A stretch of DNA of 64,000 nucleotides, taken from the NCBI GenBank assembly GCA_013359125.1, contig JABWCR010000016.1, positions 1 through 64,000 of the forward strand, read 5' to 3'. Below, piece after piece: positions 10,013 through 58,912 of the stretch. The DNA comes from Armatimonadota bacterium. GTDB lineage: Bacteria > Armatimonadota > Fimbriimonadia > Fimbriimonadales > GBS-DC. Each line of letters begins with the position of its first letter. Positions within the stretch are counted from its first letter, which is position 1. Under the pieces are notes generated by a model. It saw nothing but the letters and a program-made list of their open reading frames with translations. It ran no database searches and had not been told where the DNA came from. Both the position numbers and the translations under genes were made by a program.

Positions 10013-11569
10013 ATGATATTCAAAAGCCCTTATCCTCAAATAGAGATACCGAATCAATCTCTCACCGACTACGTCTTTGCCCATTCTGGGAGCTATCTGG
10101 ATCGTCCAGCGCTGATCGATGGTCCGACCGGGCGCGAACTGAGCTACGGCAAGTTGATCGGGATGATCCGAATGGCGGCGGCAGGATTGGCGGCAAAAGG
10201 GTTTACCAAGGGCGACGCCATCGCCATCTATAGCCCTAACATTCCTGAGTATGTGGTCGCCATTCATGCCGCGGCCCGTTTGGGCGGCATCGTTTCGACC
10301 GCTAATCCTCTCTATACGGCGGACGAACTGGCCTTTCAACTGCGCGACAGCCGGGCCAAGATGCTCTTCACCATTCCACAGTTGATGGACAAGGCTTCCG
10401 ACGCGGCTAAACAGGTCGGCGGAGCGGAGATCGTCGTATTTGGCGAGGCGGAAGGCGCAACGCCGTTCGCAACGCTCTTTCAACACGGCGATCAGCCGCC
10501 CAACGCCAGCATCGACCCGACGGGGGATACCGTCTGCCTGCCCTACTCCAGCGGCACGACCGGTATGCCCAAAGGGGTGATGCTGACGCACCGAAACCTG
10601 GTCGCCAACCTGGCGCAGACCGAGGCGACCATCGGCGCTTTCGAGTTTCAGAAGATGCTCGGTCTCTTGCCCATCTTCCACATTTACGGCCTGGTGGCGG
10701 TAACGCATCTAGGCTTGCGCATGGGCAAGACCCTCGTTACCATGCCTCGATTTGAATTGGAAGGCTTTCTTCAGATTTTGCAAGATTACAAGATTGAACT
10801 GGCGAACTTAGTGCCGCCCATTATCTTGGGGCTGGCCAAGCATCCGGCAGTCGCACAATACGACTTGTCTTCTCTTAGGTTAGTGCTCTCCGGGGCGGCG
10901 CCGCTCGGGGCCGACGTCGTGGGAGAAGCCTCAAGCCGGATCGGATGCGCGGTTTCTCAGGGCTATGGCTTGACTGAGACCTCGCCTGTAACGCACGTGC
11001 TTCCGTTCGACTATCCCAAACCCAAGCCCGGCTCGATCGGCCCACTGGTTCCAAACACCGAGGCCAAAATCATCGACGTTTCGACCGGCGAGGAGTTAGG
11101 CACGGATCAGGACGGCGAACTGCTGATCCGCGGGCCGCAGGTAATGAAGGGCTATCTGAACAACCCGGAAGCGACCGCTCAGTGCATCGATTCGGACGGT
11201 TTCCTTCACACCGGCGATATGGCGCGGGTCGATTCGGACGGCTGTTTTTACATCGTGGATCGGCTGAAGGAGCTGATCAAATACAAGGGGTATCAAGTTC
11301 CTCCCGCCGAGTTAGAGGCTTTGCTATTGACTCATCCGGCGGTTGCAGACGCCGCGGTCATCCCGGCGTTGGACGAAGAAGCGGGCGAGGTGCCCAAGGC
11401 GTTCGTCGTCAAGCGGGCAGAGGTTTCGGCAGAGGAGCTGATGGAGTTTGTAGCGGGCAAAGTCGCGCCCTACAAGAAGATTCGGTATGTGGAGTTTATC
11501 GACGCGGTGCCCAAATCGCCTGCCGGCAAGATTTTGAGGCGAACCCTGATCGAAAAGGATCGCGCTTAG
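10013..11569 (+). CDS. Acyl-CoA synthetase, 4-coumarate-CoA ligase-like
   Basis: This 518-residue ANL-superfamily adenylate-forming ligase has the AMP-binding P-loop YSSGTTGMPKG at residues 178-188. GYGLTETSP lies in the middle, and the C-terminal hinge region includes DGFLHTGDMARVDSDG, KYKGYQVPPAELE and the catalytic lysine in PKSPAGKILRR. It activates a carboxylate, fatty or aromatic, as the CoA thioester. AAGGAGG precedes the ATG. The final four bases overlap the 3' end of the convergent hutI. Confidence 0.9.
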   Translation: MIFKSPYPQIEIPNQSLTDYVFAHSGSYLDRPALIDGPTGRELSYGKLIGMIRMAAAGLAAKGFTKGDAIAIYSPNIPEYVVAIHAAARLGGIVSTANPLYTADELAFQLRDSRAKMLFTIPQLMDKASDAAKQVGGAEIVVFGEAEGATPFATLFQHGDQPPNASIDPTGDTVCLPYSSGTTGMPKGVMLTHRNLVANLAQTEATIGAFEFQKMLGLLPIFHIYGLVAVTHLGLRMGKTLVTMPRFELEGFLQILQDYKIELANLVPPIILGLAKHPAVAQYDLSSLRLVLSGAAPLGADVVGEASSRIGCAVSQGYGLTETSPVTHVLPFDYPKPKPGSIGPLVPNTEAKIIDVSTGEELGTDQDGELLIRGPQVMKGYLNNPEATAQCIDSDGFLHTGDMARVDSDGCFYIVDRLKELIKYKGYQVPPAELEALLLTHPAVADAAVIPALDEEAGEVPKAFVVKRAEVSAEELMEFVAGKVAPYKKIRYVEFIDAVPKSPAGKILRRTLIEKDRA

Positions 11570-27191: not shown

Positions 27192-27219
27192 GGTTGGACG
27201 GCGACAGCGCCGTCCAACC
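27192..27219 (-). terminator. 12-bp perfect hairpin downstream of glgA
   Basis: GGTTGGACGGCG (27192-27203), four loop bases and CGCCGTCCAACC (27208-27219) form a perfect stem just past the glgA stop. No T-run follows on either strand, so it is a GC hairpin that may work with Rho or protect the 3' end. Confidence 0.55.
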
Positions 27220-27229
27220 TGTGTATCGA

Positions 27230-28723
27230 TTAGCGATACGCCAACTCGGCAGCCTTGCGCTGATCTCGCGCATGTTGATAGAGATTGACATAGGCGTCCG
27301 CCGATGTCTTCCAACTCCAGTTCGTGGTCATTGCCCGCTGAACCAGCTTTGGCCACTTGGTTGGCGATTGGAAGGCAGTCGTAGCCCTCTTCAGCGCTTC
27401 GGTCAAGGCGGTCGGCGTAAACTCCGTAAAGGTAAAGCCGTTGCCCTTGTCGAACCGGGCGCCCGCATCGGTAACCGTATCGGCCAGACCGCCGGTCGCC
27501 CTTACGACCGGCAGCGTACCGTAGCGCATGGCGATCATTTGCCCCAAACCGCATGGTTCGAATTGCGAGGGCATCAAGAAGAGGTCTGCTCCGGCATAGA
27601 TCTTTTGCGCCAGTTTCGGATCGAATCCGATGGTTGTGCAGACCTTGTTGCGGTTCTTCTTGTGCTGCGCGGTCAGGAAGCGCTCGAATGCCGGATCGCC
27701 CGTGCCCAAAATGACAAACTGGACCGGCAGCTGCAGCATCTTGGCAAAGGCGGTCTTGATGAGGCCCATGCCCTTTTGATCGGTCAAACGACCCACCATG
27801 CCGATCACGATCGCGTTAGCGTTGGGCTTCCAGCCGCAGGTCTTCTGCAGTTCGGCCTTGCACTTTTGCTTGCCGGTCATCTTCTTGGTCGAATAGGGAG
27901 CGGCGATCTGCTTGTCGGTCTCGGGGTTGTAGAGATCGGTGTCGATGCCGTTGAGGATTCCGGTCAGGCGCTCGCGAGAATTGAGCCAGGACAGTAATCC
28001 GTTTAGGCCTTCTCCAAAGGCCTCGGTCTGTATCTCGGCGGCATAGGTCGGGCTGACGGTGTTGACCATGTCGGCAAAGACGAGGCCGCCCTTCATGAAG
28101 CTGAACTGGCCGAAGAACTCTAACTGATCGGGCGCAAAGAGATGTTCCGGCAGCCCGGCCCAGTGCAGGGTTTCGTGCGGGAAGAGGCCCTGGAACGCGA
28201 GATTGTGGACGGTGAACACGGTTGCAATCTGGTCGAGGAGAGGATTCTCCAACGTCTTAAGGTAGACGGGGATAAGCCCTGTGTGCCAGTCGTTGCAGTG
28301 GACCACGCGCGGAAGCCAGTGCTCGGAATAGCGCTCGATAAAGCTGACGACCGCTCGATTGAAGAAGATGTAAGGCTCGGCGCCCGGTCGGTAGATGGTC
28401 TCGGAACTGGTGGATTCGTTGAACCACCGATTGCAACCGACCAGATAGACGGTTAGGTTGTTGTCGAGCGTTAGGGTTCGCACGTAGGCGCGCTCGGTCC
28501 AAAACGGATTGATCTGGACGTCGAACTCGAGCAGCGGAGCGATCTTGAGCGTTGCGTTGTTCTCGATCATGCCGTAGTCGGGCATGATGATTCGGACATC
28601 GTGGCCCATTGATTTCAGGGTTTTGGGCAGCGCGCTGGCTACGTCGGCAAGGCCGCCGACTTTGGCCAAGGGCGCCACCTCTGCCGAAACAAATAGGATC
28701 GGTGATGCGCTTCTTTTCGCCAT
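27230..28723 (-). CDS. glgA: Glycogen synthase, ADP-glucose type (GT5)
   Basis: GlgA extends alpha-1,4-glucan from ADP-glucose. The ADP-glucose-binding KVGGLADV lies at residues 21-28 and the nucleotide-binding segment FLMPSQFEPCGLGQM near the C-terminus. The 497-residue length is normal. AAGGAGGG precedes the ATG. No glgB, glgC or glgP is adjacent. The 138-base gap upstream (28724-28861) is GC-rich and I recognise no riboswitch in it. Confidence 0.94.
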   Translation of the reverse strand: MAKRSASPILFVSAEVAPLAKVGGLADVASALPKTLKSMGHDVRIIMPDYGMIENNATLKIAPLLEFDVQINPFWTERAYVRTLTLDNNLTVYLVGCNRWFNESTSSETIYRPGAEPYIFFNRAVVSFIERYSEHWLPRVVHCNDWHTGLIPVYLKTLENPLLDQIATVFTVHNLAFQGLFPHETLHWAGLPEHLFAPDQLEFFGQFSFMKGGLVFADMVNTVSPTYAAEIQTEAFGEGLNGLLSWLNSRERLTGILNGIDTDLYNPETDKQIAAPYSTKKMTGKQKCKAELQKTCGWKPNANAIVIGMVGRLTDQKGMGLIKTAFAKMLQLPVQFVILGTGDPAFERFLTAQHKKNRNKVCTTIGFDPKLAQKIYAGADLFLMPSQFEPCGLGQMIAMRYGTLPVVRATGGLADTVTDAGARFDKGNGFTFTEFTPTALTEALKRATTAFQSPTKWPKLVQRAMTTNWSWKTSADAYVNLYQHARDQRKAAELAYR

Positions 28724-28861: not shown

Positions 28862-29764
28862 TCAGCGAACGTTTGAAATTTGCCGCACTGGGCGCCTTCT
28901 CTTCGACTTCTGGCGGTACATGGCCTGATCCGCTTCGCGGAGCAGGTCGTTTATGGACAGGGTCTCGCTCGGCTCCATCAGCGCGCCGCCAATGCTCAGC
29001 GAGAGCGCCGAGTGTCCATTGCAGAGTTCGTTGTGGAGCGCGACCTTCTCTTGGATTCTTGCGATCAGACGGTCGCGAAAGTCGCCCTCTCCCATGGCGA
29101 TCACGGCAAACTCGTCGCCGCCCAGCCGAGCGATGGCATCGGACTGACGAACCGCGCCGCGCAAGATTCGGGCAATGGTGCGGATGCACCAATCGCCCTC
29201 ATCGTGGCCGTGCTTGTCATTGACGGCCTTAAGGCCGTCCAGATCGATGAACAAGACCACGATCGATAGGCCGCTCCGGCGAGCGAGCGAAACCAGTTGG
29301 TCGCCCATGATCGTCAGACCTCGGCGATTGTGGAGGCCGGTCAAATCATCGATGGTGGAGAGCTGCAGCCAGGCGTTTCGATGTTTCTGTCGCTCGATGG
29401 CGGCCGATACGGTCTTGTGGAGCTGTTCAGAAGTCATGCGGCGGCGAAGCACGTAATCTTGCGCGCCGGACTGAATGGCGCGCTCGCCCAATTCATCTCT
29501 CGGCGCGAGAGCGACAACGGCTGCCGACGGATGAGTTTTGCAGAGTTCGTCGCAGGTTCGCGCGCTCTTGGGCTCGTCCGCGTCCAAACCCAAGAGAACG
29601 GCGGCGTACCTGCGCCTTTTGAGTCTCTGTACTCCTGTTTCGAGCTGCTCTACGGTATCGACTTGGTAATCGGCATCGCTCGAGGCGGACAGCCTTTGGC
29701 CGACGATCTGCGCGGCGGCAGCGTCGGCCTCGATCAGCAACAACTTTCTCTTTAAGTTCTTCAT
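28862..29764 (-). CDS. Diguanylate cyclase with degenerate receiver domain
   Basis: The 300-residue product has an N-terminal receiver-like domain (1-~120) and a C-terminal GGDEF domain with an intact GGDEF at residues 215-219. RxxD (RQSD) lies nine residues upstream of GGDEF, the usual inhibitory-site position. In the receiver, the usual phospho-acceptor Asp is replaced in AAVLLGLDADEP and the conserved Lys is not seen, so it is likely a pseudo-receiver. It should make cyclic di-GMP from GTP. The start (ATG 29764, AGGA site) lies at the foot of a 53-base hairpin. Confidence 0.88.
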   Translation of the reverse strand: MKNLKRKLLLIEADAAAAQIVGQRLSASSDADYQVDTVEQLETGVQRLKRRRYAAVLLGLDADEPKSARTCDELCKTHPSAAVVALAPRDELGERAIQSGAQDYVLRRRMTSEQLHKTVSAAIERQKHRNAWLQLSTIDDLTGLHNRRGLTIMGDQLVSLARRSGLSIVVLFIDLDGLKAVNDKHGHDEGDWCIRTIARILRGAVRQSDAIARLGGDEFAVIAMGEGDFRDRLIARIQEKVALHNELCNGHSALSLSIGGALMEPSETLSINDLLREADQAMYRQKSKRRRPVRQISNVR

Positions 29765-29766
29765 AT

Positions 29767-29819
29767 CGATAATCCTAAAGGGGGCCCGGACAAACGGGCG
29801 CTCCCCCATAGGATTATCG
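29767..29819 (-). promoter_or_regulatory. Long hairpin sequestering the ribosome-binding site of the diguanylate cyclase
   Basis: CGATAATCCTA (29767-29777) is perfectly complementary to TAGGATTATCG (29809-29819). Inside are GGGG/CCCC and GCCCG/CGGGC pairs around a six-base loop. On the minus-strand RNA the AGGA Shine-Dalgarno lies within the outer stem, whose foot is two bases from the ATG. It may gate translation of the cyclase, or act as a terminator for the upstream gene, though no T-run follows. Confidence 0.6.
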
Positions 29820-29847: not shown

Positions 29848-32343
29848 TTAGCGAGGCGGCTTCACAAAGATTGGATTGGTGAACGAACGCGGCTTGACGC
29901 TGGGGTAGAGGGCTGTGAAGCGCGAACCCAATGCGTCGGCAATGATCCATCCCTCGGTCGGAGGGTCGATTTCTGCGGTAATCGTCCAGTCGAGCGGACC
30001 ATCGGCCTGAGGCACGGGAGACGACCAGGCTTCTTTGCCGTTGACGATCAGTTTGACCTGTTCGACCTTGATCCAACTGGCGGCGCGAACGGTGAGATCG
30101 AACGCCAGCTTTCGACCAGACGGAACGGTTCCGCCAGGCCGCACGCCGGCAATGGAGAAATCGATCATTGGACCAGCGCAGACGATCACATCGCCCGATC
30201 GGAGCGCCTCGACCAAGTTCTTTTCGTTGACTCGCCTTGGATCTTCGTGTCCAAACCGGATATAGGTCCGCGGAAATCCGGCTTCAAAGTTGTAGGCTCG
30301 ATGACTATCCGTGTTGCCCATCGCCAAGAATCGCTTGCCCTGATTGAGAAAGTTGAACCAATCGGTCATCACTTGGACCAGCCCGCCGCCCATGCCGTTG
30401 AAAACCTCGATCGCGTCAAAGTTGTCCGAGAACTCTTGCGGCTTGCCGATCTCGCCGGTCTCTTTGTGCATCCCGATCCAATCGAACCAACCCATGTTGC
30501 CGCCTCGCGGATGATTGATTTGCACGATGACATCGCCGTCAAAGTTCTTTCGCGCGTCGGCGAATATCTGGGCGGCGCTCTTGTCGTACCAGGCGATCGC
30601 TCCATTGTTCGGTTCGCTGGGATCGTATCGCTGAGGATAGGCGTTGAAGTGGCCGAGGCGATTGTTCGGCGAGATTTCGGTGCCGGTGATGGCGGCAATT
30701 CGATTCTCCAATCCCAGACGTTTGACGACCGGCTTGTAATCGGTGTTGACGTCGTGATCGGTGGCGACCATGATGCTGACGCCCGCACCCGCGTAGGCCA
30801 GGACTTTATCTTCCAGCGCGTCGTTCGAATCGGGCGAGGGCATGGCATGAATGTGAAAGTCGCCGCTGAGATAGCCGGGCATTCGCGCCGATCTCGCGAG
30901 ACTGGTTCGCCGCTCGATGGTTTTGCCCGGCTCGAAGGTCAGTTCGGCGGCGTCTACCTCGTACTCAAAGCCACGGCTAAAGGTTACAAGGTATTTTCCA
31001 GGCTCGACGGGAATGGTCTCGTTTCCGGTGCGGCTGAACCAGACTCGATGAAAGCGGCCAAACTGCCCTTGCTCTCCATATTTTGCGCGCTCGGAGTTGG
31101 GTATCGGCCCGCTGATACGCTCGAAGGTAACGGTACAGGGGGCCGCTTGGCTCTTCTCGTCGCCGATCTGAAAACGCAGGTTGGCGGCGGGCGGCATCGA
31201 GATTCTGAGGCGGTCGGCTGGGACTTTGGCATCGACCATAATCGGCGCTCGCCCCTCGGCAAAGGCGGCGACCTGGTAGTCGCCAGGCTTAAGCGTCAAA
31301 GAGAATGCGCCTCTATCATCGGCTTTGACGATGTTTGAAAGGGCGTCCGTATCCTTGTTTATAAAGTAGAGGCGAGCGTTTGGCGCAGCATCGCCGGATA
31401 TTTTTGCGCCTCGCTCGTCGTCGCCCATCGCTGCGAGGATCGGTTCGAGCGATCCATTGGAAAGGGTCAGCGCCCAAGTAACGGTTCGAGATTCGCCAGG
31501 CTGTATGCCGGACCAAGTCGCAAGGTTCGCCTGAAAAATCTGCTCGGCGCGCATGATCTCGCCCAATTGGCCATCGACTCGATAGAAGCCGTAGCCAATT
31601 TTCTGCCCAAGGCCTGCCATCAGATTGTGCGGTCCTTTGAGCGAATCGACCAGACCGAGCATGGTCTTTGTGCCTGCGGTTCGGAATGCGTGATCCATCG
31701 CTCCAATGGGCGGGATGTAAGTTTCGATGCCGTCGCCCTGCACCAACCCCAGGTTCATCGCGTAGGTCTGCGCTCTGTCGGTCGTGTTGATCGCGCGCAT
31801 TTGAACGGTCAGCGTATGGGAGTCGGGCGCTAAGGCGTAGTCGATTTCAACGCGCATCCCGATCGGAGCGCTGGGGATGTTGAGCGTTTGATCGACTATT
31901 GGAAAGCGATCATCGACCGCAAAGACCCTCAAGACAGCGGTCTGGCCCCGTCCGCCTGGATTGACGATCTCGGCTCTCTCGGCTCTGAGCGTCCGCAGAT
32001 TGGGCAGCCCCTTTGCATCGGTTGCGCTGATAAAGAGCTCGCCCAGAAAATCCATATCGCTCCCCTTCTCCGGCATAACGGCATCCAAGATTCGACCGCC
32101 ATAGCGAGCATATCCCGAGGCCGGGCGCGGGCGCGAAACGACAAAGACGGAACGGGAGTTTCTCAGGATGTAATCTCCCGCCTGGCCTTCGGCTTTGGGG
32201 CCGCCTGGCAGGTCCTTCTCGGTGGCGATCTTGAGTTCGGCCATTCCGTCTTGCACCTTGGGCAGCGGCTCGGTGCGGATGCGCCCGACATCGTGCCCCC
32301 ATGCAACGGAAACGAGAAAGAGGGCGATAAGGATTCGAATCAT
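29848..32343 (-). CDS. Secreted CehA/McbA-family metallohydrolase (PHP domain)
   Basis: The 831-residue product has a signal peptide (MIRILIALFLVSVAWG). Beta-rich domains fill residues ~20-480, including a carboxypeptidase-regulatory-like repeat near 310-370. A PHP-type metal domain follows with GDFHIHAMPSPDS, ATDHDVN, QINHPRGG and GNTDSHRAY. Characterised relatives hydrolyse carbaryl or similar esters, but the natural substrate is unknown. The location is probably periplasmic or extracellular. It is divergent from the dehydrogenase at 32399. Confidence 0.87.
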   Translation of the reverse strand: MIRILIALFLVSVAWGHDVGRIRTEPLPKVQDGMAELKIATEKDLPGGPKAEGQAGDYILRNSRSVFVVSRPRPASGYARYGGRILDAVMPEKGSDMDFLGELFISATDAKGLPNLRTLRAERAEIVNPGGRGQTAVLRVFAVDDRFPIVDQTLNIPSAPIGMRVEIDYALAPDSHTLTVQMRAINTTDRAQTYAMNLGLVQGDGIETYIPPIGAMDHAFRTAGTKTMLGLVDSLKGPHNLMAGLGQKIGYGFYRVDGQLGEIMRAEQIFQANLATWSGIQPGESRTVTWALTLSNGSLEPILAAMGDDERGAKISGDAAPNARLYFINKDTDALSNIVKADDRGAFSLTLKPGDYQVAAFAEGRAPIMVDAKVPADRLRISMPPAANLRFQIGDEKSQAAPCTVTFERISGPIPNSERAKYGEQGQFGRFHRVWFSRTGNETIPVEPGKYLVTFSRGFEYEVDAAELTFEPGKTIERRTSLARSARMPGYLSGDFHIHAMPSPDSNDALEDKVLAYAGAGVSIMVATDHDVNTDYKPVVKRLGLENRIAAITGTEISPNNRLGHFNAYPQRYDPSEPNNGAIAWYDKSAAQIFADARKNFDGDVIVQINHPRGGNMGWFDWIGMHKETGEIGKPQEFSDNFDAIEVFNGMGGGLVQVMTDWFNFLNQGKRFLAMGNTDSHRAYNFEAGFPRTYIRFGHEDPRRVNEKNLVEALRSGDVIVCAGPMIDFSIAGVRPGGTVPSGRKLAFDLTVRAASWIKVEQVKLIVNGKEAWSSPVPQADGPLDWTITAEIDPPTEGWIIADALGSRFTALYPSVKPRSFTNPIFVKPPR

Positions 32344-32361
32344 GTATCAAGATTTTGCCAG

Positions 32362-32379
32362 GCAGGAGTTCGCTCCTGC
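32362..32379 (+). repeat. UUCG-tetraloop hairpin between divergent genes
   Basis: GCAGGAG (32362-32368), loop TTCG and CTCCTGC (32373-32379) form a seven-bp stem followed by TTTAA on the plus strand. It lies 19 bases before the GTG of the dehydrogenase and within the 5' region of the CehA gene. A regulatory or terminator role is possible. Confidence 0.45.
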
Positions 32380-32398
32380 TTTAACGAAGGGTTAAGCC

Positions 32399-50269: not shown

Positions 50270-50302
50270 AAAAAAATGGCCGGGCTTGCAAGCCCGGCCA
50301 TT
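50270..50302 (-). terminator. Rho-independent terminator of the subtilase gene
   Basis: A perfect 28-base palindrome (AATGGCCGGGCTTG and its complement, 50275-50302) is followed on the minus strand by seven Ts (50270-50276). It lies 25 bases past the subtilase stop and is the clearest intrinsic terminator in the window. Confidence 0.88.
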
Positions 50303-50327: not shown

Positions 50328-53300
50328 TTAGCAACCCGTGCCGAAGTAGCTCAGCACGATCGCCAAGTCAACGTCGTCGACTACGCCATCGGCGTTGACG
50401 TCGGCCGCCAGGCCGTAGGCGCTGGCGCCGAACTGCGACAGCACGATCGCCAAGTCCACATCGTCCACACAGCCATCGTTGTTGATGTCGCCCCAGATCA
50501 CCGGGCGACCGATGGTCTTCCACATCGTTCCAGCGACATAGTTGCCGGTCGGAATGTTGTTGTAACTCCACTGGAAGCCCAATGTTGCGTCGAAGTTCAT
50601 CGATGGCGACGTCGCATTGGCGAGCGTGTCGGCAGACGTATTGAGCAGTTTGGTCCGAAGGCTCGCAAACGGCGCGATCTCCCAGAAGTTGGGATGCGGC
50701 CTAGCGGTCAACGTGGCAAAGAGGCTTCCCTCGGTCTGTCGCAGCACGCCCGGCGCGATGTTCGCCGCGCTATCGCCTCCTGCCGTTCCAGAAAGATCGA
50801 AGTCCGTGTAGTTGTAGAAGTGAACGGTTCGGGTGACGCCCGTCAGGTTCTCAATGTAGTGGTCTATCTGCAGGATGGCGGTATCGCCTTCCGTTTTGAA
50901 CAGGTTGTAGTCCAGCCAGAACCTAATGATGCGCGTCGAACCTTCATCGTCCGGCTCATCGTAAACTAGCAACATGCGATTGGGGGCGGGCTGATCCCAG
51001 TAGATCAGGTTGCTACCAATCCCATACTCGCGGTTGTTGCCCTGCACGCGGTAGAACCACCAGTTTTGGAACAACTGGTCGCCTACGCTGCCACTGGGCC
51101 TGAAGTTTGCCAAGCCTACGAAGTTATGCCTATTGCCCGATCCAAAGGCGCTCGATTCGGAATACTCTGCGCCTCCGTCGACCAGTGTGAAAGCGCTGGT
51201 CGTTCGGATGACCATTGGATCGCTGTATCGAGCGTTGCCCGCCATGTCCTCAACATAGAACTGCATGAGGTTGTTGGTCGCGCTGGCGTTGGGGAACGGG
51301 ATGTTAGGCGCCGTGATGGTTTCAACGGCCGTCGTGCCGTCCGCTCCGGTCGTTACCGTGTTAACCCAGGCGGACCAGGTTGCGCCGCCATCGGTCGAGT
51401 AGCGATACCAGGCGCTAGCCCTACGGAGACCGCTCAGAACGTCCTGACAACTGGCTACCACCGTTACGCGATTGCCAAACACGGTGGCGCTGGGGGTATA
51501 GGTTGTAAAGATCGGCTGAGTGGCATCGATGTTGAACTGCACGTTGGGCATGTCGCTCCAATTTCCGGCGCGATCATATGCCCGGAAGTAGAGCCAGTGC
51601 GTTCCTTCTGAGCCGAACGGCACAGTATTCGCGTAGATGCGCTCTAAGGCCGTGCTGCCCATGCCGGCGCCCGTTGTGCAGTTGGTCGGTCCAACCCAGG
51701 TCGATCCGTTCCAATACCAGTAGTACAGCGCGGTGGTATTGAGACCGGAGAGCACATCCTGAACAACGACCGAGCAGGTTGGCGTGAGGCTGTTGGCCCA
51801 TGGCGTCGGCAACGGGCTGCCCCAGTTGGTAGGAGGCGTGCCGTCGATAATGACGCTCGCGTTTGCCTGCCTCGTGCCGCCATTGCTAGAGGTCGTGGTT
51901 ACTCGGAAGTTCTTGACGCCTTCGGTCGTGCCGCGCATCGAGAAGTTCATCGTTCGGTTCCAACCGCTCGCGTGAGCGTTCCCCATGTTCATGGCGTCGA
52001 CTCCAGCAAACCAGTAGCTTTCGTTGGAGCCGCTTGGCGACTGACGGTTGTAAGTCAGGCCGTTGTAGACCGTTCCGCCGGTCAACAGGTCGAAGTCGGC
52101 ATAGACGCCCGAAGCGACATGCGAAGACGCAATGGCGGTCGCATTGATGTTGAAGTCCGCGTTGGGCGGATAGGCGACCGGGTAGTTGACTTGCAGCGCG
52201 TAGTTCTCGGTCGGCGCGCCGGCGATCACTTTGTAGGTAACCGCCCAGTTCTGGCTGCCGCCGCTTGCCATGCTCCACGTGTCGATCTTGATGCGATAGT
52301 TGCCGGCAGGCGCGTTGTTGACCACGATGTACTCGACCGTGTCGAAACTGGAGCGCGAAGCCCATTGTCCGGACCGATCGGTGGTCAGCGTGCCGTGCTG
52401 CAGCCATAGATCGATGTCGTTGACTCTAGCCGAGCCGGCGCCGCCTGCGGCGGGAGGATCGGGATAGGTCATGACGACGACCAGTCTTGCGACCGGCGCT
52501 CCAAGCGTAAAGTCGCGGACGCTCATCGAGCCTGCGCCGCCGTTCGTGCCCCACCACGCTTGCCATCCGCCGTCCATGCCATAGTGAGCCAGCATGCCGT
52601 CCACTTTTCCGGCGCCATAGTTGTTGTTACGGCTTCCACTGTTGGCGATGGCCGTTGCCATGATCAGGGTCTTGTAGAACCAGGAGGGCCCGCCCGAGCC
52701 GGCGTAGTGCTGCACGAGACCGGTCAGCAGACCGGCAACGTGCGGCGTCGCCATCGAGGTGCCCGTCCATCCCGTGTTGTAGCCGGTGGTCGAACCGTTG
52801 TTGCCGACCGAGTCGATGAACGCGCCCGGAGCCGCAACGTCCGGCTTGACGCGCCCGTCCGCCGTCGGCCCGCGGGACGATGAGGGGTAGACCACGTCGG
52901 TGCTTGTCCCATTGTCGTAGACGCTTCCGACGGTAATGGCGCCTTTGCTATCTCCGGGGATCAGCACCGTGCCCGAGCCCGAGCCCGAGTTGCCAGCGGC
53001 CACCACGTACATCATGTCGGCTGCGAACAGTTCGTCAAGCCTTCGGGACTGTGTGCTCGTGCCGGATGTCGTGCCGCCGCCGCCGCCGGAGTAGTTGACG
53101 ATTCGGCGCGTGTACTGGGCCCCGCCCGAACCGGCTTGCGAATTGATGCCGTCCAGCACAGAGTTGCCCTCTGAAAACCCATTGGATCGAAAGACTTTGG
53201 AAAGGAGAAAATCCCAGCCTGGGTCGTTTGAATCTCTTCGGCCTTGCGCAACGCCTCGGTAGCGAGATTGCGCGACGCCTTCGCCAAAGAAGGTGCCCGA

Positions 53301-54572: not shown

Positions 54573-57119
54573 TTACTCCGTCGTAACCGTAACCTTCTTG
54601 ACCAAAGCAACGTCGCCCGATTTGAGTTCGACGACATAGTCGCCATTGCCGGCCGCGCGCCGCCCGGCGCCTCCGCGGTGGTTCCAGGCAATCCGATAGA
54701 GCCCCGGCTTGGTCTCGCTCGTGGCCGTCATGTACGATTCGCCCAGAGCATCCCGGATAGCGATACTTGCGCCTTCGGCCAGTTCTTTGCCCACGTAGTA
54801 CCAGATGGCCGCGGAGTTGGACGGGTTGTCAAAGCGAACTTGCCTCGGCCCTTGCCATTGATTGCCTCGCATGGGGCGCATGACCGTAATGCGCTTTTGC
54901 TCGAACAGGTGGACGCTCGACTCCTTGATGCTTTCGGTCAAGTAAGGCAACGGACCAATATCCATGATGTAGATGCCGCGCCCATGAGTAGCGATGACGA
55001 GTTCGCTTTCGGCGGTGTTGATCTGTAGATCGTGAACGGGCACAGTTGGAAATCCGCCGCGCACGCGCTCGTAATGCTCTCCGCCATCGGTCGAGACGTA
55101 AAGTCCGATCTCGGTGCCGACAAAGAGCAGGTTCTCGTTCTGCGGGTGCTGGCGAACGACATAGACGGAACCGTTCGCGGGCAGATCGCCGGTAATGTTC
55201 GTCCAGGTTTCGCCATAGTCGGTCGTTTTGAGCAGATAGGGCTTGTAGTCGTTGTTGCGATGTCGATCGACGGCGACAAATGCGTGTTCGACGTTATGCG
55301 GCGATGCGGTTACGCGGCTGATCCACCGCTCGCGAGAGACGTTCGGAAGCTTATCGGTCAGATCGGTCCACTCCTGGCCGCCGTTCTTGCTGAGCCAGAG
55401 ATTGCCGTCGTCTGTGCCAGCCCACAGAATGCCAGGACGAACGGGCGATTCGTCCAATGTCGAGATGGATGCCGGCGCGCCGCGGGTCAGATCCTCGCTG
55501 ATGGTCTGCCACCGGTCGCCGCGGTTGACCGAGCGATGCATGAAGTTGCTGCCCACATAGAGCGTGCGCGGGTTGTGCGGCGAGATGATAAACGGCGTGG
55601 ACCAATTGAATCGCCGCCCTTGATCGCCGGTCGGGCGAATGCTGACTCCTGCGCCCGATTCGAGATTCACTCGGCCCAAACCGCCGTTTTGCGATTCGGC
55701 GTAAACGGTCGTCCAATCGGTCGGATCGACGGCAGTGTAGAATCCGTCGCCTTCCCAGATTTTGATCCAGTGGTACCAGTAGACTCCGCCGAATCTAGTT
55801 GCCGTTGGACCGCCCCATGTGCCGTTGTCCTGCAAGCCGCCGTACACCCAGTAGGGCTTTCGGCTGTCGAAGGAGACCGCATAGAACTGGGCGATGGGCA
55901 AATTGTTGAAGAAGTCCCAAGTACGGCAATTGTCGTAGGTTACGTTGAGGCCGCCGTCGCATCCCAAGATCGCATGGTTCGAATCGTTCGGGTTGATCCA
56001 CATGGCATGGTGGTCGGGATGGACGCTAGACGCGGCGTTCGACCGAAACTCTTTGCCGCCGTCGGTCGACTTGTGCAGGCTGACTCCCAACACATAGACC
56101 GTCTTGTCGTCGTTGGGATCGACGCGAATTTGGCAGTAGTAGAAGGGTCTGGGGCACAGGATGTTGGACTTCTTCCAACTCTCTCCGCCGTCGTCCGAGC
56201 GGAAGATGCCGCCCGTAGCAGGGTCTTCGTCTGCGCGCGAGGTCGTTTCGCCCTGCAGCGCGGAGCGAGTGCGCTCGGTCTGGATAACGGCATAAAGGAT
56301 CTTCGGATCGCGAGGATAGACCGTCAGACCAATGCGCCCCATCTTGTTCTCGGGCAATCCCTTGCTCAGTTTTCTCCAATTCTTTCCGCCATCGGTCGTC
56401 TTGTATAGACCGGCGTCCGGATCAAACTGATATTCGGGCGTATTGCTGGCGAATCGGTCGCGTCGGACGCCGTATGCGGCTGCCCACAACGTGTCTGGCT
56501 GCGTCGGATGCATCGCAATGTCGATAACGCCGCAGTTTTCGCTCAGCGCGATAGAATGGGTCCAAGTCTTGCCGCCGTCGGTCGTCTTGTACAACCCCCT
56601 CTCTTTGTTAGGCCCCCAAAACTGTCCGACCGCCGCAACATAGACTACGTCGGGGTTCTTGGGATGAATCACGATCCGGCCGATCTGCCGCGTTTCGTTG
56701 AGCCCCATGTGCTGCCAGGTCTTGCCGCCGTCCTCGCTCTTGAAGACGCCATCGCCCCAGCTGACGCTGTTTCGGGCGTTGCCTTCTCCCGTTCCGACCC
56801 ACACGACATCGGGATTGGATTGCGAGACGGCGACGGCGCCGATCGAGGCGGTCGATTCGTTGTCGAAAACCGGCGCAAAGGTAACGCCGTTGTTGGTCGT
56901 CTTCCAAACGCCGCCGCTAGCGGCGGCCACATAGTAAGTGCTTGGGCTCTTATCGACCACGGCCAGTTCGGTGATCCGTCCTCCCATGCTCGTTGGGCCA
57001 ATGGCGCGGGGAGAGAAATGAGCGAGCATCTCGGACGTCAGCCGAAATCCGGGATCGGCATGGGCGATCGCGACAACCGTCAGACAAACTGAAAGGACCT
57101 TCATCGAAAGCGTTTTCAT
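54573..57119 (-). CDS. Secreted BNR/Asp-box beta-propeller protein (sortilin-like)
   Basis: This 848-residue product has a signal peptide (VLSVCLTVVAIAHA) and at least eight Asp-box motifs such as SEDGGKTW, TTDGGKTW, SDDGGESW and TTDYGETW, spread over residues ~70-720. This is typical of the WD40/YVTN/BNR-like or VPS10/sortilin N-terminal propellers that database annotation often calls glycosyl hydrolases. No catalytic residues for a sialidase are evident. The ~120-residue C-terminus is a beta domain. I start at ATG 57119, nine bases after AAGAAGG. It has no dockerin module. Confidence 0.85.
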   Translation of the reverse strand: MKTLSMKVLSVCLTVVAIAHADPGFRLTSEMLAHFSPRAIGPTSMGGRITELAVVDKSPSTYYVAAASGGVWKTTNNGVTFAPVFDNESTASIGAVAVSQSNPDVVWVGTGEGNARNSVSWGDGVFKSEDGGKTWQHMGLNETRQIGRIVIHPKNPDVVYVAAVGQFWGPNKERGLYKTTDGGKTWTHSIALSENCGVIDIAMHPTQPDTLWAAAYGVRRDRFASNTPEYQFDPDAGLYKTTDGGKNWRKLSKGLPENKMGRIGLTVYPRDPKILYAVIQTERTRSALQGETTSRADEDPATGGIFRSDDGGESWKKSNILCPRPFYYCQIRVDPNDDKTVYVLGVSLHKSTDGGKEFRSNAASSVHPDHHAMWINPNDSNHAILGCDGGLNVTYDNCRTWDFFNNLPIAQFYAVSFDSRKPYWVYGGLQDNGTWGGPTATRFGGVYWYHWIKIWEGDGFYTAVDPTDWTTVYAESQNGGLGRVNLESGAGVSIRPTGDQGRRFNWSTPFIISPHNPRTLYVGSNFMHRSVNRGDRWQTISEDLTRGAPASISTLDESPVRPGILWAGTDDGNLWLSKNGGQEWTDLTDKLPNVSRERWISRVTASPHNVEHAFVAVDRHRNNDYKPYLLKTTDYGETWTNITGDLPANGSVYVVRQHPQNENLLFVGTEIGLYVSTDGGEHYERVRGGFPTVPVHDLQINTAESELVIATHGRGIYIMDIGPLPYLTESIKESSVHLFEQKRITVMRPMRGNQWQGPRQVRFDNPSNSAAIWYYVGKELAEGASIAIRDALGESYMTATSETKPGLYRIAWNHRGGAGRRAAGNGDYVVELKSGDVALVKKVTVTTE

Positions 57120-57194
57120 CGGGCGATACCTTCTTTTTATAGAGTTCAATTGCAGGATTCGACGCGACCCGCGTGGAACCCTGCAATTGAAAGG

Positions 57195-57256: not shown

Positions 57257-58177
57257 ATGATTCGCTTGATGAGCGCGCTCTGCGCGATGGTCGTCGCGGC
57301 TTTGGCGATGGCCGATTGTACGGTTCAGTTTGCAACAGGCGAGGGTATGGCCAGGGGAGGCGATCGGGCGGGCCACTTTGCATTGGGCGCCCGCCGAGTC
57401 GACTGCGACGGCGAAGTTCGCATCGGCGGCAGTTTTCGCTTTACCATGGCGACCAGCAACGTGATCGGCACCGACCTTGTGCTGCCAGCCGTTCAACGGA
57501 TGAGCGTCCATGAGCGTACTGCCGAGTTAGGCGGCCCTGCCATCTTGCACGTTCGCGAGGGCGGTATTGTGCGCCGCATCGAGGGCCACTGCGGCGTCGT
57601 AGCGGTGGACAACGGGCCGCCGACTGCCGCGCATCGCGACACATTGGCCATTCGATTCGTCGCTGCTAACACGACCCATCCGCCGTTCGAGTTTCGGGGC
57701 GAAGTAACCCACGGCGACATCCGCGTAGGCACGGCCGCCAACTACTGCCGCATGTGGCACGCCCACGGTCGCGGCACAGCAATGAGCGAGAACAACCGTC
57801 GAGGCGAGTTTGACTTCACAGCCATGAAGCAGGTTTGCGGAGACGTAACGCGCATTGGCGGGAATCTGAGCTTCGTCGAGATGGCCTCGAACGTTACCGG
57901 TCGGCACGTCGAGATCCGACTGCCCAATGTGCGGGAGTTCCACTCCGACGGAAACGTCGCGGAGTTCTCCGGCCCAGGCGTGATGATTTTAAGAACACGG
58001 GACGGCTTGCGCCGTTTCGAAGGAATCGTGCACGCTAGGGTTCAGGATAATCGCAGGCCCGGCGGAGCCGGCAAGCCCGACACGATAACGCTCCGATTCG
58101 TAGGCAACAGCGCGAATGCAGCCTACTCGTTCGCGGGAAGTGTTGGCCGCGGCGACATTGTCGTGGGGCAAAGATAG
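57257..58177 (+). CDS. Secreted protein made of two homologous ~135-residue halves
   Basis: The 306-residue product has a signal peptide. Residues ~25-158 and ~169-304 are clearly related: RIGGSFRFTMATSNVIGTDL versus RIGGNLSFVEMASNVTGRHV, and GEVTHGDIRVG versus GSVGRGDIVVG. Each half is beta-rich with few cysteines. No family is recognised. GGAGG lies before the ATG at 57257; upstream in-frame codons are not needed. A hairpin follows the stop. Confidence 0.65.
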   Translation: MIRLMSALCAMVVAALAMADCTVQFATGEGMARGGDRAGHFALGARRVDCDGEVRIGGSFRFTMATSNVIGTDLVLPAVQRMSVHERTAELGGPAILHVREGGIVRRIEGHCGVVAVDNGPPTAAHRDTLAIRFVAANTTHPPFEFRGEVTHGDIRVGTAANYCRMWHAHGRGTAMSENNRRGEFDFTAMKQVCGDVTRIGGNLSFVEMASNVTGRHVEIRLPNVREFHSDGNVAEFSGPGVMILRTRDGLRRFEGIVHARVQDNRRPGGAGKPDTITLRFVGNSANAAYSFAGSVGRGDIVVGQR

Positions 58178-58912
58178 TTGGACAGAGCGCCCGGCATCGA
58201 ACATGTCGGGCGCTCTCCTGTGCAGCCTAAGGTCTACGTCGCCGGTCGCGCCGCCAAGCCGATCGTAATCGACGGTAAGCTGGACGAGTGGGACGGTGCG
58301 CCTTGGTCGGACCCTTTCGTCGATATCGAAGGCGATCTGAAGCCCAACCCGCCCTACGAGACGCGGTTCAAGATGCTTTGGGACGACGAGCATCTCTATA
58401 TCGGCGCATGGTTGGAAGAGCCGTGCGTCTGGGCGACGCTGACCGAGCACGATTCGATCGTCTTTCACGACAACGACTTCGAGGTTTTTATCGACCCGGA
58501 CGGAGATACCTGCAACTACTTCGAGATCGAAATCAACGCGCTGGGCACGGTGTTCGACCTTTTCTTGGTCAAGCCGTATCGCGAAGGCGGACCGGCGCTA
58601 CATGGCTGGGATTGCAAAGGGCTCCGAACCGCGGTCTGGGTGGACGGTCGCCTGAACGACCCGACCACGATCGATCGCGGCTGGAGCGTGGAGATGGCGA
58701 TCCCTTTTGCCTCGCTGGACGGCACGCCTCCGCCCAGGATCGGCGACCAGTGGCGGATCAACTTCTCGCGCGTCGAGTGGCACATCGATGCGATCGACGG
58801 CAAGATCGTCAAGAAACCGAACGTGCCGGAAGAGAACTGGGTCTGGACGCCGCAAGGCGCGATCGACATGCATATGCCAGAGCGCTGGGGATTCCTACAG
58901 TTCGGACCTTAA
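58178..58912 (+). CDS. CBM9-like carbohydrate-binding protein
   Basis: Most of this 244-residue protein is a family 9-like carbohydrate-binding domain: IDGKLDEWDGAPWSDPF, ETRFKMLWDDEHLYIGAWLEEP, DNDFEVFIDPDGD and NYFEIEINALGT. No signal peptide is visible. The start is uncertain: the TTG at 58178 follows the previous stop directly, but a hairpin (58183-58215) then lies inside the N-terminus, so the GTG at 58220 is a good alternative. It precedes the fucosidase gene by 42 bases and may help it bind glycans. Confidence 0.75.
   Translation: MDRAPGIEHVGRSPVQPKVYVAGRAAKPIVIDGKLDEWDGAPWSDPFVDIEGDLKPNPPYETRFKMLWDDEHLYIGAWLEEPCVWATLTEHDSIVFHDNDFEVFIDPDGDTCNYFEIEINALGTVFDLFLVKPYREGGPALHGWDCKGLRTAVWVDGRLNDPTTIDRGWSVEMAIPFASLDGTPPPRIGDQWRINFSRVEWHIDAIDGKIVKKPNVPEENWVWTPQGAIDMHMPERWGFLQFGP
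58183..58215 (+). terminator. Nine-bp hairpin after the duplicated secreted-protein gene
   Basis: GAGCGCCCG and CGGGCGCTC, flanked by AGA/TCT-type bases, pair around 13 loop bases just past the stop at 58177. No T-run follows. If it ends the upstream transcript, the CBM9-like gene must start further down. Confidence 0.4.

Follow-up and report, generated by a model that had tools for sequence, protein, structure and literature searches.

On the minus strand of the window (the whole stretch of 64,000 nucleotides that was analysed), a long hairpin stands directly ahead of a diguanylate cyclase gene and takes in the likely ribosome-binding site of that gene. This raises the question of whether the hairpin is a device for controlling cyclic di-GMP (c-di-GMP) synthesis or whether it belongs to the end of the gene before. 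Our results indicate that the hairpin is real and strong and that its best explanation is an ordinary one: it is probably a 3'-end element, lacking a U-tract, of the preceding gene. The features on which the argument turns are as follows.

29848 to 32343, minus strand: gene for a secreted PHP-type metallohydrolase-like protein (putative assignment) of 831 amino acids, upstream of the cyclase gene on the same strand
29767 to 29819, minus strand: 53-nt hairpin, from sequence and fold
29809 to 29819 and 29767 to 29777, minus strand: outer arms of the hairpin, 11 perfect pairs
29803 to 29807 with 29779 to 29783, and 29795 to 29799 with 29784 to 29788, minus strand: two GC-rich inner stems of 5 bp each
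29789 to 29794, minus strand: hairpin loop, 6 nt
29813 to 29818, minus strand: GATAAT, the sole -10-like element near the cyclase gene, weak, inside the 5' arm
29773 to 29776, minus strand: AGGA, likely Shine-Dalgarno sequence of the cyclase gene, whose partner in the 5' arm is UCCU
28862 to 29764, minus strand: gene for a GGDEF diguanylate cyclase of 300 amino acids with a receiver-like N-terminal domain, from ATG 29764, identified by domain search

Read along the minus strand from 29819 to 29767, the hairpin is CGATAATCCTA T GGGGG AGC GCCCG TTTGTC CGGGC CCCCT T TAGGATTATCG, and the isolated 53 nt have a minimum free energy of -33.5 kcal/mol. Within 91 nt of its own context the minimum free energy is -36.3 kcal/mol, against a mean of -22.0 (standard deviation, 3.4; z = -4.27) for dinucleotide shuffles, of which 1 in 200 folded as well. 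When 53-nt windows were taken every 23 nt on both strands of a 464-kb genome sample (the window together with stretches totalling 400 kb), an energy at or below that of the hairpin was found in 1 of 40,282. Perfect inverted repeats of at least 11 bp with a loop of up to 60 number 6 in the window, compared with 0 to 2 in 20 mononucleotide shuffles. The original prediction had described a very stable 53-base hairpin with a perfect 11-bp outer stem and inner GC stems, with AGGA inside the stem and the ATG two bases past its foot, and had proposed folding the minus-strand RNA; sequence and fold bear out this description in full.

The cyclase matches GGDEF at 6.6e-38 and Response_reg at 1.4e-5, the latter below the Response_reg cut-off. 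Its receiver-like domain appears degenerate (VLLGLDADEP, with G at the expected position of the phosphorylated Asp), and the GGDEF motif appears intact, as does the RxxD motif (RQSD) five residues earlier. The AGGA at 29776 to 29773 is part of the 3' arm and stands 8 nt upstream of the ATG at 29764 to 29762, and AGGA, GGAG and GAGG motifs in this genome peak 6 to 10 nt ahead of starts. The reading frame is open further upstream, with a second in-frame ATG at 29809, within the 5' arm of the hairpin. Use of this codon, the choice of an ad hoc gene caller, would extend the cyclase by MGERPFVRAPFRIID; it was rejected as the start in that it has no Shine-Dalgarno sequence at a normal distance, and ATG 29764 gives the usual short lead ahead of the receiver-like domain.

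In RNA that carries the full hairpin, the AGGA is predicted to be unpaired with a probability of about 0 at 37°C, rising to no more than 0.01 at 55°C and 0.06 at 75°C. To open positions -20 to +16 around the cyclase start takes 26.3 kcal/mol, compared with a genome median of 13.2 kcal/mol; 6 of 419 other start calls in the genome sample cost at least as much, and at least two of these six are doubtful (a late start of a starch-synthase-like gene and a GTG start in stretch L092). Folding thus supports the view that the hairpin buries the ribosome-binding site of the cyclase when the transcript includes all of it. The claim that the cyclase would be poorly translated stands in part: the burial has thermodynamic support for a transcript that spans the hairpin, and low translation itself is a prediction. 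The 3' arm covers the Shine-Dalgarno sequence, so read-through RNA should yield little cyclase. The translational block hinges wholly on where the transcript starts, because a start at 29806 would free the AGGA (96 to 100% unpaired upon folding). Coupling to upstream translation was considered and rejected, as a ribosome at the stop codon at 29848 would cover about 15 nt downstream and the hairpin begins 28 nt on.

Promoters in this genome have GGTATAAT-like -10 elements and no clear -35; TATAAT occurs 37 times in upstream gaps against 1.4 expected, a 27-fold excess. No good GGTATAAT promoter match was found in the 640 nt ahead of the cyclase gene, and read-through from the gene for the 831-amino-acid protein, which carries a modest -10 element (GGCAAAAT; score, 3.47), thus seems the more likely source of the cyclase transcript. 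A short inverted repeat, GCAGGAG-CGAA-CTCCTGC, lies directly ahead of the -10-like element of that gene (32330 to 32390). Many genes of apparently leaderless type, with a TATAAT-like element 6 to 7 nt ahead of the start, preceded by GG, and with no clear -35, can be seen in the genome (10176 to 10589 of stretch L087, and the sampled stretches L086 to L105). We also considered ATAATCCTA as a recurring promoter motif; with 7 sites, compared with 4 in the reversed control, it was unconvincing.

The hairpin begins 28 nt past the stop codon of the upstream gene, and the intergenic gap is 83 nt. Given a 53-nt hairpin at that distance in a gap of that length, the Shine-Dalgarno sequence of the cyclase is necessarily covered; since the covering is forced by the geometry of the gap, the burial requires no separate explanation. 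The upstream product is putatively assigned to the PHP type from its sequence motifs, and the domain search gave a weak CarboxypepD_reg match.

Hairpins of the strongest class are enriched past stop codons in the genome sample. Gene calls there came from an ad hoc caller, and the census covered stops in the 464 kb that have a gap of 35 nt or more behind them; hairpins of -30 kcal/mol or lower occurred within 80 nt of 10 of 141 stops and in 0 of 125 coding controls, and hairpins of -25 kcal/mol or lower past 28 of 141 stops and in 12 of 125 controls. At a threshold of -20 kcal/mol there was no post-stop enrichment (60 of 141 versus 50 of 125), and only the strongest class stands out. Mean local fold energy right after stops dips most clearly in convergent gene pairs (-16.7 versus about -12), and in co-directional gaps of 50 to 150 nt it is -13.2. 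Among 35 post-stop hairpins of -25 kcal/mol or lower, 28 have no more than three T in the 8-base tail. Three comparable post-stop hairpins lie in the window itself.

27192 to 27219, minus strand: hairpin with a 12-bp stem and no long T run, after a starch-synthase-like gene with its stop at 27230
50275 to 50302, minus strand: hairpin with a 12-bp stem and a T run behind it, downstream of a gene that ends at 50328
58184 to 58216, plus strand: hairpin that follows the stop at 58177, has a 10-bp stem and ends 3 nt ahead of the next start at 58220

Because gaps in this genome are short, the foot of a post-stop hairpin can abut the next start. Within the family, orthologues of the upstream gene (41 to 51% identical) point in the same direction, in that about half of them are followed, just past the stop, by stem-loops of unrelated sequence: the one in genome G001 has a T run (TTTTTTT), and those in G006, G007, G010, G003, G008 and G017 have none, automatic scoring being less sharp for G001 and G003. 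Several points count against a 3'-end role, the missing enrichment at -20 kcal/mol among them. Orthologues with a close downstream neighbour on the same strand (G004, G014 and G016) have no clear post-stop hairpin, and the cyclase locus also has such a neighbour, a pattern that would speak against this reading. The hairpin, with its 53 nt and its perfect, A+T-rich outer stem, also exceeds most 3'-end hairpins of the genome in length.

Like an intrinsic terminator, the hairpin is a GC-rich stem-loop (via its inner stems) soon after a stop codon, and there is no U-tract directly past the stem: the tail is ATATGAAG, with two T in eight. Past the inner stem there is only TTTAGG, and a terminator scan did not report the hairpin. 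In operons of Escherichia coli, stable hairpins that lack a U-tract protect the upstream gene (PMC5927463), and GC-rich hairpins lacking a U-tract are found where a 3' end arises by Rho-dependent termination and trimming (PMC13289151); the classes that have been described include U-less ("I-shaped") terminators and Rho-trimmed 3'-end hairpins (PMC8355165, PMC13289151). Judging from position, stability and the missing U-tract, protective hairpins and Rho-trimmed 3'-end hairpins appear to be the closest known kinds. The hairpin shares with protective hairpins of the malE-malF type (PMC5927463) a stability well above background, flanking genes on the same strand and the lack of a U-tract, and would likewise be predicted to shield the upstream mRNA and reduce expression of the downstream gene; unlike them, it lies flush with the next start. 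It resembles U-less and Rho-trimmed 3'-end hairpins in being GC-rich and soon after a stop, with no U-tract, in a genome that encodes Rho, and differs from them in an A+T-rich outer stem of more than usual length.

Of what the original prediction had put forward as possible roles, the one that agrees best with the genome-wide and comparative data (post-stop enrichment and orthologue stem-loops) is that of an intergenic hairpin at a 3' end with an additional effect on the following gene. The hairpin would most likely mark or protect the 3' end of the upstream mRNA; it may stop exonuclease once Rho-dependent termination or intercistronic cleavage has occurred, or it may act as a weak U-less terminator. 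If so, it would be a case, in a compact genome, of a hairpin that closes one gene and also blocks translation of the next. A hairpin over a start site is by itself no evidence of a switch.

The other role proposed, an RNA switch for c-di-GMP synthesis, fared poorly. A dedicated switch, whether a thermometer, a riboswitch or a hairpin remodelled by a protein or small RNA, would hide the ribosome-binding site so as to control synthesis, and the fully paired Shine-Dalgarno sequence, its opening cost of twice the median and the presence in the genome of c-di-GMP signalling proteins (GGDEF, PilZ and EAL) would all suit it; we nevertheless consider it quite unlikely. As in RNA thermometers that hide a Shine-Dalgarno sequence, the motif sits in the 3' arm just ahead of the start and is paired at low temperature, but this hairpin is perfect, GC-rich and not meltable in the physiological range: it does not open on moderate warming, folding at 25 to 75°C keeps the motif at least 94% paired, and a thermometer was rejected on these grounds. 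Riboswitches for c-di-GMP (GEMM-I and GEMM-II of Rfam) would likewise tie an mRNA leader to this molecule, yet the hairpin has no aptamer-like fold and no alternative fold was found for it; Rfam gave no match at the gathering threshold and only a chance snoRNA match at E values up to 5. Nor does the arrangement recur. The same inverted repeat has no second copy ahead of other genes or anywhere else in the genome, and none in 112 relatives of the class; 60 relatives, the 112 class relatives and a scan of the genome collection yielded neither an orthologous cyclase nor an orthologous hairpin in which compensatory changes might be sought, the best matches to the cyclase being 32 to 41% identical, mostly across the GGDEF domain. 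The missing second copies and the lack of any repeat family also count against the suggestion that the repeat acts as DNA, either as an operator made up of two 11-bp sites in inverted orientation, 42 bp from centre to centre, or as the remnant of a mobile repeat. Perfect 11-bp arms spaced by about four helical turns would fit an operator, but the inner stems pair as well, which DNA binding does not need, and we regard this explanation as highly improbable.

It is unlikely, yet the likeliest of these alternatives, that the cyclase has a promoter of its own inside the inverted repeat, with GATAAT as the -10 element and a start near 29806, so that its mRNA has a free Shine-Dalgarno sequence and only read-through RNA is silenced. 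ATCC-GATAAT-C at 29818 is the best site in the 640 nt (score, 0.69 with one matrix and 2.38 with the other), GATAATC is one base from the TATAATC of this genome, and an RNA begun at 29806 would lack the outer 5' arm. A related layout, in which a post-stop hairpin is followed by TATAAT and then by a leaderless-type ATG, occurs at 10176 to 10589 of L087. The higher score, by which the site ranks top, comes from the more biased matrix; by the other, its 0.69 is near the median best score of 0.12 per 100 nt of coding sequence (upper quartile, 2.5). In addition, CC precedes GATAAT where most -10 sites here have GG, upstream gaps hold hardly more GATAAT than expected (5 versus 2.4), and with a start at 29806 other pairing would still cost 18.3 kcal/mol to open. 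We give little credence to a more elaborate, lineage-specific scheme in which one inverted repeat serves as a two-state device: read-through RNA would fold fully, protect the upstream message and be unable to translate the cyclase, the GATAAT promoter would make a shorter, translatable mRNA, and promoter choice rather than ligand or heat would set c-di-GMP synthesis.

Elsewhere in the window, an inverted repeat with perfect 12-bp arms lies at 57145 to 57191, in the gap between divergent genes and at the 5' end of the one at 54573 to 57119 or 57149; it is possibly an operator or a leader hairpin.
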